A DNA stretch of 64,000 nt from Rhodococcus sp. WMMA185 (GTDB lineage Bacteria > Actinomycetota > Actinomycetes > Mycobacteriales > Mycobacteriaceae): assembly GCF_001767395.1 (NCBI RefSeq), contig NZ_CP017014.1:1860001-1924000 (forward strand), given 5' to 3'. A program made the translations under genes and the position numbers. Positions within the stretch are counted from its first letter, which is position 1. Every line of letters begins with the position of its first letter. The notes under the pieces were generated by a model. The model made no database searches and had not been told where the DNA came from. It saw nothing but the letters and a program-made list of their open reading frames with translations. Shown here piece after piece: positions 59,152-64,000 of this stretch.

Positions 59152-60273
59152 GTGCCGAATCAGGAGAATGCCGAGTTCGCGGGTCGGGAACCGAAGGTGC
59201 CGTTTCCCAAGCCGGAGCGCGACATCGACCTCTACCGCAGGTCGATCGCCACACTTCAGGCCGCACTCCCCCCCGGGTGGACGTTGACGGCCGGGAAGTC
59301 ACGATCCCTCGCCGATGCACCGGAACGGCTGATGGTCGGCTCCCCCAACGGTGAGGTGGCGTCTTTCTCCGTCATCCCCGCACGCGGTGTACTCGCCGGA
59401 GACGCCGCTCGCTTCGCGGACGGACTCTCGAACTCCGATCGTGGATTCGTCTGTGCTCGATACCTTTCCGAACCCGTTCGCCGTCAACTCGATGCCAGGG
59501 GCCTGTCCTATGCCGATGCGACCGGGAACACCTCGTTGTCCGCTGACCGGCCCGCGATCTGGGTGCGAGACCGCGGGGCGGACGCCGACCCTTGGCGCGG
59601 ACCCGGCCGGCCGGCCGCTCAGTTGACGGGCGATCCGGCTGCACGCGTTGTGCGGGCACTAGCCGACCATTCCGGTCAATTGACCGTCCCGGAGCTCATC
59701 CGGCTGTCCGGGGCCTCCACCGGAGCAACCTATCGAGTCGTCGAGACCCTTGAAGAACGCGATCTCCTCGAACGCCTCCCCCGCGGGCCGATCATCAGTG
59801 TGCGGTGGCAACGGATGCTGCGTGAATGGAGCAGCGATGCGAACTTCTGGGACTGCCCCACGGTTGGCTACTTTGTGCCCGAGGGCGTGCCGTCGTTCCT
59901 GACAAGGCTGGGAACGCACTCCGACCATCTCTACGCCGTGACGGGCTCACTCGCGGCCGCAGCATTCGCCGAGTACGCACCGGCGCATCAGGTGCAGATC
60001 TACGCGGACAACGGAGAGGCTCTCGCCGGCGCACTCGACCTGCGCCCCGTGGACGAGGGCGCCAACGTCCTCATCGCCACTCCCAGATCGGCCGCGGTGT
60101 TCGAGCGCACCCTGTTCCGCGACAACGTACGGTTGGTCGCCCCGGCGCAGGCCTTCGCAGATCTTCTCGCGGGAGATGGTCGTTACCCGCAGGAAGCGGA
60201 GCACCTTCTCGACTGGCTGACCGAAAACATGACCGAGTGGCGAACACCACTGCAGACCCCGACGCCCTCCTAA
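59152..60273 (+). CDS. winged-helix protein resembling type IV AbiEi antitoxins
   Basis: A 373-residue protein. The stretch G-L-S-Y-A-D-A-T-G-N-T-S-L followed by P-A-I-W-V resembles the G-Y-x-D-L-S-G-N-x-R block of AbiEi-family antitoxin-like proteins. A winged helix-turn-helix follows (L-T-V-P-E-L-I-R-L-S-G-A-S, Y-R-V-V-E-T-L-E-E-R). The C-terminal ~130 residues resemble a nucleotidyltransferase-like sensing part (Y-A-V-T-G-S-L-A-A-A-A-F) without an obvious catalytic pair. No AbiEii toxin gene is adjacent, so it may be a stand-alone regulator. The GTG start at 59152 lacks a ribosome binding site. An A+T-rich stretch at about 59085-59130 may be its promoter. Confidence 0.6.
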   Translation: MPNQENAEFAGREPKVPFPKPERDIDLYRRSIATLQAALPPGWTLTAGKSRSLADAPERLMVGSPNGEVASFSVIPARGVLAGDAARFADGLSNSDRGFVCARYLSEPVRRQLDARGLSYADATGNTSLSADRPAIWVRDRGADADPWRGPGRPAAQLTGDPAARVVRALADHSGQLTVPELIRLSGASTGATYRVVETLEERDLLERLPRGPIISVRWQRMLREWSSDANFWDCPTVGYFVPEGVPSFLTRLGTHSDHLYAVTGSLAAAAFAEYAPAHQVQIYADNGEALAGALDLRPVDEGANVLIATPRSAAVFERTLFRDNVRLVAPAQAFADLLAGDGRYPQEAEHLLDWLTENMTEWRTPLQTPTPS

Positions 60274-60454
60274 CCGTCGCCTGCCGCACTCATTTGGTAC
60301 GAGTTCCCGCAGCGCCGCATCCCCGGCACGCCGCGACGCGTGTCGCACACGAGCGCCCAGACGTCACAAGATGTACATTTCGTACCTCACTGAGTGAGCC
60401 GAATAGAGCCCGACCGACGTGGGGATCCGTTCGCACACGAATAGGAGTACTTGG

Positions 60455-61681
60455 TTGTCTATCGGAGTTGGGCTCAGGGTCGGCACTGCAGTATCGACCG
60501 CAGTTGTGGCGTCGAACGATCCGGGGTCACCGGATCCGATCGTCATCGTCAGAGACACCGTCCTTCACATGTGTCCGGACGGTACGGCGATTCTCGGCGG
60601 ATCCCCGCCGCGCACGAACGGCGAAACCAGCACTGTGTCGGCGTTTCTTCCGAGCGTGGGCGACCCCGTGGGCGTCGAGGTCGGTGAAGGGTCGCGTTTC
60701 CGCGCCGAGGACCTGGTTGCCGGTTCGATGCGCTGCCTTCTCAGGGAATGCGAGCCTCTCCCCGACCACGGCGGACGCACCGGCGGTACCCCCGACATCT
60801 TTGCCGCATATCCCACCCGGTGGGACTCGGCGACGGTGGCGGCACTGCGTGACGCTCTGGACTACGCCGACATGTCCTATCTCTCGCTCGTTTCGGACGC
60901 TGAAGCGGCGGCGGCATGGTTCGAATCCGAGATCGCTGAGCGTCCCGGTCAGCTCGTCGGCATCTACCACGTCGATGACGCCGGTGCCACCGTGTCACTG
61001 ATCCGCTCAGGTGTCGAGGCGGGCAAGGCGTTCCGCTTCTCCTCGGGAGGGTCCCCCACCGCTCAACTCGCAACCGCACTCGGTGCGTTCGGTTGGCTAC
61101 CGAGCAACCTCGACGCCGTGGTTGTCACTGGCGACGGACTGATCGCGAGAGATTCCGCAGCAGTACAGGAACTTGCGAACACGGTCAGCGAGAAGTTCGA
61201 CGTACGTTGCGTCGTCGGCCCCGGGCCGGAGCAGACCGCAGCCCTTGGGGCCGCGATCCGCGCCGCAGGCTTCAACCCGACCACACACAAGATCACTCCT
61301 ATCGGGCTGCCGCCTTCCTACGAGGTAACCGAGGTGATCGAAGCCGTCGTCGACGCCGGGCTCGAGAACGAGGCTGATTCCGAGGACCACGAGGTGAATC
61401 CCACACCATTGACGCCTGTCCAAGCAGCCGCTCCCCCGCAGCTCTCCACCAGCGGGGAGGCCCCCAATTCCGCCGCTTCCTCAGTCGCGCTGCTCGAGGA
61501 TGCTCCGGCACCCGTCACGGTGCCCGACGAAGACTCCGCCGACGAAGACTCCGCCGACGAAGACTCCGCTGACGATGATCCCGCCCCCGACACAAGTTCT
61601 CGGGATTCCTGGCTCATGGCCGCAGCGGTCGGTGTGGTACTCGTACTGGTCGCAATAGCCTTCGTATGGCTCGTCCTTTGA
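60455..61681 (+). CDS. membrane-anchored Hsp70-like ATPase-fold protein
   Basis: A 408-residue protein. The N terminus (S-I-G-V-G-L-R-V-G-T-A-V-S) resembles the first phosphate loop of Hsp70/actin folds. The block V-V-T-G-D-G-L followed by G-P-G-P-E-Q-T-A-A-L-G-A-A-I-R-A-A-G resembles the end of the DnaK ATPase domain. There is no peptide-binding domain. Instead an acidic, Pro/Ser-rich linker with D-E-D-S-A repeats leads to one C-terminal membrane helix (about 388-405) with a very short outside end. TTG 60455 is chosen because GGAG stands seven bases upstream. Similar proteins occur in mycobacteria without known function. It lies between the AbiEi-like gene and the Wadjet genes on the same strand. 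Confidence 0.6.
   Translation: MSIGVGLRVGTAVSTAVVASNDPGSPDPIVIVRDTVLHMCPDGTAILGGSPPRTNGETSTVSAFLPSVGDPVGVEVGEGSRFRAEDLVAGSMRCLLRECEPLPDHGGRTGGTPDIFAAYPTRWDSATVAALRDALDYADMSYLSLVSDAEAAAAWFESEIAERPGQLVGIYHVDDAGATVSLIRSGVEAGKAFRFSSGGSPTAQLATALGAFGWLPSNLDAVVVTGDGLIARDSAAVQELANTVSEKFDVRCVVGPGPEQTAALGAAIRAAGFNPTTHKITPIGLPPSYEVTEVIEAVVDAGLENEADSEDHEVNPTPLTPVQAAAPPQLSTSGEAPNSAASSVALLEDAPAPVTVPDEDSADEDSADEDSADDDPAPDTSSRDSWLMAAAVGVVLVLVAIAFVWLVL
61526..61585 (+). repeat. 15-bp tandem repeat coding D-E-D-S-A
   Basis: Three nearly perfect copies of GACGAAGACTCCGCC (61526-61570) and a degenerate fourth lie within the linker of the Hsp70-like gene. The number of units could vary between strains without breaking the frame. 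Confidence 0.85.
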
Positions 61682-61868: not shown

Positions 61869-63410
61869 GTGACCGAATCAGATGCGACCCCCGAGCAGTC
61901 GGAAACCGAGTGCTCGAGAGCGGGAGAACCACTCCCCGACCCGTTGGTGCGCGACGATCGGTTGAAGCTGTTCGCCTTTGCCACAGCCGAAAAGCGCATG
62001 GAGTACCTGTGGGTGCTTCGCGCCTTCGACCACGCTCGCGCGAACTACGTGGTCTTGCTACACGCCGCAGAGGTGTCCCGGGTTCTCGAACGCATCGCCG
62101 ACGAACCGGCCGGGCGCCTCTCCCCCGCCGATATCACTCCCCTACTCGAACAACTACACGCGTGGGAGGTTCTCGAACGCAGCTACGACGGCACGCGGGC
62201 TGCGACTCTCGCCGAATACCGAAACCGTCATTTCGTCTACCAGTTGAGCCCGGCCGGCTACCAGGTATTCCGCGCCGTCGAGGACGTCCTCTCAGCGCGG
62301 CTCGACGACGCATCATTGTCTCGTCTCGCCTTGCCAGATCTGCTGGCAGACATGGAGGACCTCGCAGCGGCCAACCGCGCGGCCGAGAGCGACCTGATCT
62401 TCCGCAAGCTCAGCCGACTCGACTCCACACTGTCGGACATGGCAACCAGGGCCGCGCACTTCTACCTCACTCTCGGCGATCTAGTCCGCACCACCGAGAT
62501 CACGCCCGAGACCTTTCTGTCACACAAGGACGCACTGATCACCCATATGCGCGAGTTCAGTTCCGACCTGTCGCGGTACGCGCCGAAACTCGCCGCGGCA
62601 ATCAGAAAGGTCGAATCGACCGGAATCGACGAACTCATCCAGCGAGCCTCGTCAAGTGATGAGCGCGTGTTCCTGTCGCCCGCGGAACGAGAAGCCGACT
62701 GGCGTGCCCGCTGGGCCGGGCTGACCCAGTGGTTCGTGTCACCCGAATCCGGGCAGAGCGAGTCCGAACGGCTTCGCGAAGGCACCATGAGTGCAATCTC
62801 AGCCGTGCTGTCGCTGCTGCGCCGGGTGACGGAAACTCGACGAGGCGGAGTGAGCCGTGAGAGCCAGTTGCGGCACCTTGCCGAATGGTTCGCGGCCACG
62901 CCATCCGAGGAGTCGGCGCACGCCCTGTTCCAGGCCGTGTTCGATCTCGGTCGACCGAGGCATCTATCGATGGTGCACCCGGACGCCGACATCATTCCCG
63001 ATTCGCAGTCCTGGTGGGACGCAACCCCGGTCGAGATCTCCCGCACTCTCGCCGAAACGGGCCGGCCACCTTCTCCCGGTATTCCTGCTCGGGTGCAGCG
63101 CAATGATGCAAGCATCCGGCGGCTGCGCGAGGAACAACTCGCTGCACAACGCTCTCGGACCTTCGCTGCCCGCTCCCTCGCGGCGGGTGGAGTATACGAA
63201 CGGACTCTCGACAACGCCGAAACCGACGTCCTGCTCCGCCTGCTCAATGCCGCCCTCACGGCCGGAGTTCAGGTCAGTGGACGTGTCGGCAGCGCCTCCG
63301 GTTCCGAGAACGGGGTCAAGCTCACGCTGAGCCCACACACCGAATCCACAACGGTGCAGACCGCACGTGGGCGCCTGCATCTCGACGGACTGCGGGTGAC
63401 CGTCCAGTGA
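61869..63410 (+). CDS. jetA: Wadjet type II subunit JetA (DUF2397/TIGR02677)
   Basis: A 513-residue protein of the DUF2397 family, the kleisin-like subunit of type II Wadjet, an SMC-based system that cleaves plasmids. The N-terminal region has the family pattern (K-L-F-A-F-A-T-A-E-K-R-M-E-Y, then Y-V-V-L-L-H-A-A-E-V) with a winged-helix part around residues 60-140 (L-E-Q-L-H-A-W-E-V-L-E-R). Long helices fill the middle (R-M-x-x-F type), and R-L-R-E-E-Q-L-A-A-Q-R-S lies towards the end. The GTG start is at 61869. The stop overlaps the next start (GTGA), the packing expected in a Wadjet operon. Confidence 0.85.
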   Translation: MTESDATPEQSETECSRAGEPLPDPLVRDDRLKLFAFATAEKRMEYLWVLRAFDHARANYVVLLHAAEVSRVLERIADEPAGRLSPADITPLLEQLHAWEVLERSYDGTRAATLAEYRNRHFVYQLSPAGYQVFRAVEDVLSARLDDASLSRLALPDLLADMEDLAAANRAAESDLIFRKLSRLDSTLSDMATRAAHFYLTLGDLVRTTEITPETFLSHKDALITHMREFSSDLSRYAPKLAAAIRKVESTGIDELIQRASSSDERVFLSPAEREADWRARWAGLTQWFVSPESGQSESERLREGTMSAISAVLSLLRRVTETRRGGVSRESQLRHLAEWFAATPSEESAHALFQAVFDLGRPRHLSMVHPDADIIPDSQSWWDATPVEISRTLAETGRPPSPGIPARVQRNDASIRRLREEQLAAQRSRTFAARSLAAGGVYERTLDNAETDVLLRLLNAALTAGVQVSGRVGSASGSENGVKLTLSPHTESTTVQTARGRLHLDGLRVTVQ

Positions 63411-64000
63411 GCGTCCACGACATACCGCCGCTCGCGCGCGACTCGTACCAGCGGGCCGCACGGATCATCCTGTCGAATCACTTGGTGACGCAAACATATC
63501 CGGATCGCGTCGCTCTGCCACTTCTGCGTCGTTGGGCCACCGAATTACGCGACGATCTATCGGAACTGTTCGGGTATCGCCTCGAGATCACGGAGACGAC
63601 GGCTCGGTTGTACACGGTGGCCGACCAGCTCGATGCCGGCGCACCGGCCAAGACGGCAACGGGCCGCACGTTCGACCGGTACCGCTACGCCTACCTGGCC
63701 CTGACTCTCGCTGCGCTGGGCCGCGCCGGCAATCAGATCACCCTGTCCGAACTCGCGGACCACGTGGCCGCTTCTGCCTCCCACGTGGCCGGGATCGAAC
63801 TCTCGACCGAACGCGCCGCAGATCGCGATGCATTCGTGGACGCGGTTCGCTGGCTCGAAGTTCGGGGGGCGATCGCCCTCGCCGATGGTGACGCTGGAGG
63901 CTGGGCGACCAATCCCGATGCGGGCGAAGCACTTTACGACATCGACCGTTCGGTGGTGATTGCCCTGTTCCGGCCACCGCGCGCCCTCCAGCACCTCCGC
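63407..64000 (+). CDS. jetB: Wadjet type II subunit JetB (DUF2398/TIGR02678), truncated by window end
   Basis: The first 198 codons of a DUF2398-family gene, the MukE-like partner of JetA. The N-terminal block R-A-A-R-I-I-L-S-N-H-L-V-T followed by L-P-L-L-R-R-W-A and F-D-R-Y-R-Y-A-Y-L-A-L-T-L-A-A-L is typical of the family. The frame is open to the window edge, so the C terminus is missing. The expected next genes are an SMC/MukB-like ATPase (JetC, TIGR02680) and a Toprim nuclease (JetD, DUF2399). Confidence 0.85.
   Translation, partial: MSVHDIPPLARDSYQRAARIILSNHLVTQTYPDRVALPLLRRWATELRDDLSELFGYRLEITETTARLYTVADQLDAGAPAKTATGRTFDRYRYAYLALTLAALGRAGNQITLSELADHVAASASHVAGIELSTERAADRDAFVDAVRWLEVRGAIALADGDAGGWATNPDAGEALYDIDRSVVIALFRPPRALQHLR

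Follow-up and report, generated by a model that had tools for sequence, protein, structure and literature searches.

Does the gene pair at the right edge of the window, as we call the whole stretch of 64,000 nucleotides analyzed here (bases 1860001-1924000 of a single-contig genome of 4,444,448 bp), open a complete type II Wadjet operon, and is the nuclease a fixed part of this operon in related genomes? The original prediction had taken a DUF2397 and a DUF2398 gene sharing the bases GTGA as the first half of such an operon, with JetA and part of JetB lying inside the window. To follow the genes past the edge, 16 kb beyond it were read in the same genome; this downstream read agrees with the window over the 3000 bases they share, and coordinates past 64000 continue the window numbering. 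The genes are as follows.

61869-63410, + strand: jetA, kleisin-like subunit (DUF2397 / TIGR02677), 513 aa, GTG start.
63407-63410, + strand: GTGA overlap of the jetA stop and the jetB start, read directly in the sequence.
63407-64000 (window edge; full gene to 64792), + strand: jetB, KITE-like subunit (DUF2398 / TIGR02678), first 198 of 461 aa.
64789-68961, beyond the window edge: jetC, SMC-like ATPase of 1390 aa (TIGR02680), with an ATGA overlap with jetB.
68965-70167, beyond the window edge: jetD, 400 aa (DUF3323 and DUF2399), 3 bp after jetC.
70204-71445, beyond the window edge, - strand: mshC, the next gene after jetD.

The jetA product matches Pfam DUF2397 over nearly its whole length (475 bits, cut-off 28.5, E 3e-142), TIGR02677 (239 bits, cut-off 166) and the PADLOC profile JetA2 (620 bits). 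The piece of JetB inside the window matches DUF2398 (119 bits, E 3e-34) and stays below the TIGR02678 cut-off (85 versus 125 bits), whereas the full protein passes it with 146 bits and reaches 239 bits on DUF2398 (cut-off 26.9). The E-values of JetA and of the JetB piece rule out chance matches. JetC scores 708 bits on TIGR02680 (cut-off 463) and shows an SbcC/Rad50-like Walker B at its C-terminal end, and JetD scores 214 bits on TIGR02679 (cut-off 196), 95 bits on DUF3323 and 130 bits on DUF2399, its match to JetD_C being marginal (22 bits at a cut-off of 22). Absence of SMC-like and DUF2399 genes downstream had been named as the finding that would speak against a Wadjet; both were looked for, and the TIGR02680 ATPase and the DUF2399 protein stand directly after jetB. 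The order is A-B-C-D with tight packing (GTGA overlap, ATGA overlap, 3 bp gap), and the G+C content of the four genes is 62-67%, jetD being the lowest. With all four products above the TIGR02677, TIGR02678, TIGR02680 and TIGR02679 cut-offs, the original prediction holds for the shared GTGA, for the two genes as the first half of a type II Wadjet and for the part of it present in the window. Its remark that type II is less studied than type I is in line with the available part of a 2023 review (PMC10586767); a related JetA/JetC pair has since been solved (PDB codes: 9qe0/9qe1). Judged by its sequence, jetABCD here is an ordinary type II Wadjet operon with all of its genes.

The JetC motifs are a Walker A GPNGSGKT at residue 35, a signature LSGGE at 1253 and a Walker B LALDEA at 1285-1290. 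In JetD, E268 (within VCEN), D315 and D317 (within DFDW) and other acidic residues are invariant in 18 of 18 JetDs of the locus, and we take E268, D315 and D317 to be the Toprim metal ligands or catalytic residues. JetC is a relative of the JetC chain of 9qe0/9qe1 (E 1.4e-68) and JetA of the chain 9qe0_E (E 5e-17), whereas JetB and JetD gave no significant sequence match when compared with all solved chains, nor did a profile search with JetD. Based on homology, the most likely mechanism of this Wadjet would be loop extrusion with JetD cleavage of small circles. The JetA/JetB/JetC motors would dimerize and load on DNA, the JetABC dimer would extrude loops driven by ATP, on a small circle the motors would run out of DNA and a DNA segment would come within reach of the JetD dimer, and the Toprim center of this dimer would cut the segment presented. 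Gene content, gene order, ATPase motifs and Toprim-type residues are seen directly. In the accepted Wadjet model, as laid out in the available parts of PMC12287153 and PMC10586767, a JetABC dimer extrudes loops, arrests on a fully extruded small circle and JetD cleaves; as far as a sequence can tell, nothing in the operon contradicts it.

Relatives of the locus were collected in a named-locus scan, covering the best 80 of 363 JetC relatives (from Rhodococcus, Prescottella, Rhodococcoides, Antrihabitans and Nocardia), in 28 genomes of the genus and in a sample of 301 genomes of the family. The closest JetC among the best 80 of the 363 relatives is that of Rhodococcus tibetensis (77% identity), and the window mshC is 94% identical to that of the R. 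opacus group, which suggests that the genome is a Rhodococcus. The distance between jetC and scpA is 42-69 kb in 19 of the 28 genus genomes, those with both genes on one contig, and this steadiness indicates that the jet operon belongs to the stable chromosome rather than to an island. In the window genome, the gap between jetC and mshC is 1242 bp and is filled by jetD. However, in 8 named loci (among the best 80 of 363 relatives), belonging to R. opacus, R. koreensis, R. wratislaviensis, R. erythropolis and relatives, mshC follows 45-57 bp after the jetC stop, which leaves no room for jetD; in other JetD-less loci, mshC lies farther away or outside the locus.

Two further genes precede jetA in the window. 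The gene at 59152-60273 (+ strand) encodes a 373 aa protein with an IclR-type HTH, a possible regulator. Of the 80 named loci (best 80 of 363), 17 carry a homologue (53-90%) upstream of jetA; it adjoins jetA in the Prescottella and R. erythropolis groups and lies more than 5 kb off in locus L068. The gene at 60419-61681 (+ strand), directly upstream of jetA, encodes a 420 aa protein in which EDSAD repeated in tandem and a hydrophobic stretch at the C-terminal end are recognized by eye; it has no match in Pfam, NCBIfam or PADLOC, and a homologue of 71-75% identity precedes jetA in 6 of the 80 named loci (best 80 of 363).

JetC (TIGR02680) is found in 26 of the 28 genus genomes, in 25 of them above the cut-off, whereas DUF2399 is found in two, the window genome and R. 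tibetensis, and DUF3323 in the same two. PF09983, a type I-like JetD domain searched for in the 28 genus genomes, passes its cut-off in six further JetC genomes, at other places, and its marginal match in the window genome is jetD itself. Both DUF2399 and PF09983 are thus absent from 18 of the 26 genus genomes with JetC, which have a motor and no recognizable JetD anywhere. Also, of the 129 genomes of the family sample with a strong JetC match (170 with a match minus 41 at E > 1e-10, counted by hand, and some of these JetCs being non-orthologues of the window JetC), 39 have DUF2399 above the cut-off (41 minus two that have no JetC) and 90 do not. At the level of loci, JetD is present in 17 of the 79 named ones (best 80 of 363, one duplicate removed), absent in 60 and cut off in two. 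The core orthologues of the window JetC comprise 109 tree rows, 24 with JetD, 83 without and two unscored, so that 83 of 107 scored rows, from Rhodococcus, Nocardia and neighbors, carry jetABC alone. For example, the Nocardia clade keeps JetC and lacks JetD in each of its 36 scored rows, and in R. kyotonense both states occur under one species name, strain JCM 23211 having jetD and strain KB10 lacking it. A JetD HMM run with hmmsearch --max over the stretch from jetC to mshC, or up to 4 kb behind jetC, detected no JetD relic among 105 JetD-less rows (91 once duplicates are removed); in the control it recovered 35 of 38 JetDs, the three missed ones lying upstream of jetA.

More distant Jet sets were also encountered. 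Loci L112, L113 and L114 (genus code g23, taken as Nocardia) are JetD-bearing operons with jetD before jetA and not behind jetC, and were kept outside the loss count because they are non-orthologous (27-37% identity). L148, L150, L154 and L156 (g27) and L137 and L138 (g14) are JetABC sets with 27-40% identity to the window, in genomes without DUF2399, those of g27 being a second copy. JetD may be lost in other type II lineages too.

The direction of these changes was addressed with trees of JetC and JetD, from which 19 same-contig duplicate loci were removed. A FastTree JetC tree of 123 rows (89 without JetD, 32 with and two, L056 and L060, unscored because they end right behind jetC) requires at least 8 state changes, and well-supported branches force 8; its long-branch warnings fall outside the core. 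L111, with too short a JetC, is left out of the JetC trees, and L086-L095, from further genus genomes, are kept out of the trees. In an 82-row outgroup tree, the sisters of the core are JetD-bearing systems, namely three linear Streptomyces plasmids, G499 (another family of the order) and G659 (the phylum), JetD being annotated in two of the three plasmids and found by similarity in all three. The JetD tree places the outgroups as the JetC tree does and gathers 24 of 24 core JetDs in one clade (support 100/100). All JetD trees exclude similarity-based JetD hits of less than 330 aa, a second JetD tree was built without L183, L184, L186, L111, L178 and L176, and a third also without L158, replaced by the larger locus L190. 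Given JetABCD in the outgroups and their like placement in both trees, the ancestor of the locus probably had jetD.

The plasmid operons (L187-L189), on linear Streptomyces plasmids of 0.4-2.4 Mb, are type II Wadjets with jetD, two of the three being flanked on either side by transposase genes, and have a JetC 46-51% identical to the R. wratislaviensis copy.

Within the core, a single early loss of jetD followed by several regains, through recombination via the flanking jetC and mshC, is a serious possibility to which we give somewhat less than an even chance. Over 58 core rows, a Fitch count needs 5 changes with a JetD-less root state of the core, whereas forbidding regain needs 18 losses. 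Moreover, holding the fascians-like JetDs together with the JetD of Antrihabitans stalactiti is weakly rejected (AU p 0.023), which suggests that the histories of JetD and JetC are not identical; this partial discordance within the core likely stems from some transfer of jetD between species or from a long-branch effect. Nonetheless, the core JetDs form one clade whose sisters are the same as those of JetC, and no JetD sampled outside the core falls inside it, which argues against regain.

If the nuclease is gone, the remaining JetABC could still serve plasmid defense by using another nuclease in trans, which we consider unlikely. In its favor, few columns of the motor subunits are specific to JetD-bearing copies. 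The comparison was prompted by the IFDR motif that type I JetB carries (PMC10586767, available part), and it revealed no pattern of a lost docking motif in JetA, JetB or JetC of JetD-less copies: columns whose residue is invariant across 15 chosen JetD-bearing rows and a minority state elsewhere number 1, 3 and 8 in JetA, JetB and JetC, respectively. A docking surface with no visible decay would also fit a hidden partner, and the PF09983 domain found elsewhere in 6 of the 26 JetC genomes of the genus points the same way. However, the 18 genomes with neither domain speak against it, as does the absence of any recurring substitute effector behind jetC in JetD-less loci, where codon composition was used to select the first ORFs of the next 3.5 kb for clustering. 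The largest of these clusters correspond to mshC (17), a peptidase-like protein named by eye (13) and the neighbor of mshC (10), and the smaller ones look housekeeping by eye, so none was retained as a replacement.

Plasmid content bears on the same point. R. erythropolis NI86/21 is listed by DefenseFinder with a three-protein 'Wadjet_II' (PMC12915292), and it combines this locus with a complete circular plasmid of 5.9 kb (PMC12915292, in its available part), which argues against a nuclease acting in trans. The protein missing there would be JetD, to judge from the jet locus of R. erythropolis NBRC 15567, which is without jetD. A shuttle vector derived from the 6 kb NI86/21 plasmid is described as stable in several Rhodococcus strains (available part of PMC12915292), and this fits JetD-less Rhodococcus loci and an overcounted Wadjet defense. 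Another strain of this species, JCM 2895, carries a pair of 5.4 kb circular plasmids according to the accessible text of PMC9959502, whatever the state of its jet locus. G009, a genome of 6 contigs with JetC and neither DUF2399 nor PF09983, has a contig of 4,367 bp with a plasmid replicase. For Bacillota, by contrast, the available part of PMC12287153 reports that jetABCD and plasmids below 40 kb nearly exclude each other. In the family sample, the replicase PF03090 is commoner in JetD-less JetC genomes (14 of 90) than in JetD-bearing ones (3 of 39), the difference not being significant (Fisher p 0.27). A separate observation concerns G007, the only genus genome more than 90% complete that has no JetC: it has six PF03090 matches, the most in the sample, on different contigs, four of them of 3.5-22 kb, and the other genus genomes have none or one. 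From this one genome, an anecdote, JetABC alone could limit plasmids.

A motor that has lost its effector could also be a relic on its way out, which is improbable here. In agreement with such decay, the jetC of G004 is split into two parts that lie in different frames, and two of the 28 genus genomes have no JetC (one of these genomes being only 75% complete), so the motor is not indispensable. Of the 28 genus genomes, 27 contain ScpA, a subunit of the canonical condensin, the miss being a 74% complete genome, and JetABC would therefore be an additional complex. Also, the dN/dS values (pairwise Nei-Gojobori, own script, upper median for even pair numbers, hand-chosen pairs of near neighbors in the tree) are slightly higher without JetD: medians are 0.077 for JetA (14 pairs), 0.131 for JetB (15) and 0.099 for JetC (15) in JetD-less pairs, and 0.056 (9), 0.111 (10) and 0.070 (10) in JetD-bearing pairs. 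The same trend is present in the mshC control, with 0.061 in 8 JetD-less pairs versus 0.042 in 10 JetD pairs, and JetD itself has a median of 0.105 (10 pairs). JetA, JetB and JetC are under strong purifying selection with or without JetD, and values of about 0.1 weaken the relic reading. Moreover, the ATPase motifs are unbroken: among JetD-less core JetCs, Walker A is intact in 80 of 80 readable proteins (3 more are truncated in extraction) and the signature motif in 83 of 83, and Walker B D1288/E1289 is present in all 108 readable core JetCs. JetB stands beside JetC in 80 of 80 named loci and JetA is present in 78 (best 80 of 363 relatives), the other two being cut by a contig end; the uniform retention of JetC in the JetD-less Nocardia clade is equally at odds with relics. 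Finally, that the missing jetD is an artefact of detection or assembly is scarcely credible: JetD does evolve fast (40-50% identity between JetD-bearing lineages of the locus, except for the R. tibetensis/window pair), but the DUF2399 and DUF3323 profiles and the unfiltered JetD HMM all agree on its absence, and the gaps between jetC and mshC measure 22-57 bp, including those of G001 and G025, whose genomes are single contigs.

We therefore favor, with considerable confidence, a complete type II Wadjet in which jetD is a detachable effector on a motor that is useful without it. Many relatives keep jetABC at the same place without jetD, so the motor probably has a second job, most likely in compacting, segregating or silencing DNA, whether chromosomal or extrachromosomal. 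What is observed is the pattern of absence and the selection; the job is proposed on the model of MksBEF of Pseudomonas. With a modest leaning, we further suggest that in Rhodococcus and Nocardia the type II Wadjet motor repeatedly became a stand-alone, chromosomally stable SMC complex after loss of the nuclease. If so, these loci would form a natural series in which defense machines become genome-maintenance condensins, or revert to being such, the two states coexisting at a single orthologous locus and, in R. kyotonense, under one species name.

The locus is noteworthy because comparison with its relatives reveals a conserved motor on which the nuclease is optional. The available part of the 2023 review treats as unresolved how Wadjet arose and how it relates to other SMC complexes, and describes chromosome activity of the JetABCD motor as undocumented (PMC10586767); with the operon present with and without the nuclease in close relatives, the relation between Wadjet and SMC complexes becomes testable. 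There is also a consequence for defense surveys. The accessible part of PMC10482375 states that 73% of 97 Rhodococcus genomes encode Wadjet together with other systems. Set against a type II jetD in 2 of 28 genus genomes, and with a three-protein locus listed as Wadjet_II, this suggests that counts of Wadjet defense in actinobacteria may be too high. In the literature searched, as far as the texts were available, no description was found of nuclease-less type II operons as such.

Compared with known systems, the window operon is the same as Wadjet type II (PADLOC JetA2-D2) in gene order, domains, motor and Toprim-type residues and shows no difference from it, whereas most sampled orthologues lack jetD. 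In comparison with PDB entries 9qe0/9qe1, its JetC and JetA have counterparts, and its JetB and JetD match no solved chain. MksBEFG of Corynebacterium glutamicum and EptABCD of Mycobacterium smegmatis are also actinobacterial Wadjets that act on plasmids (PMC7083940 and PMC10123090, in their available parts), the likeness to EptABCD being drawn from its published description. In the same available parts, MksG-like proteins are described with DUF3322/DUF2220 and the C. glutamicum system as type I, whereas the window JetD is a DUF3323/DUF2399 protein. The proposed precedent for a motor with a second job is MksBEF of Pseudomonas aeruginosa, a MukBEF-like condensin, likened by its published description; in contrast to that case, the loss is seen here at one orthologous type II locus, with both states in one genus. 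The window operon is thus ordinary, and the family of its nuclease-less orthologues is what is new.
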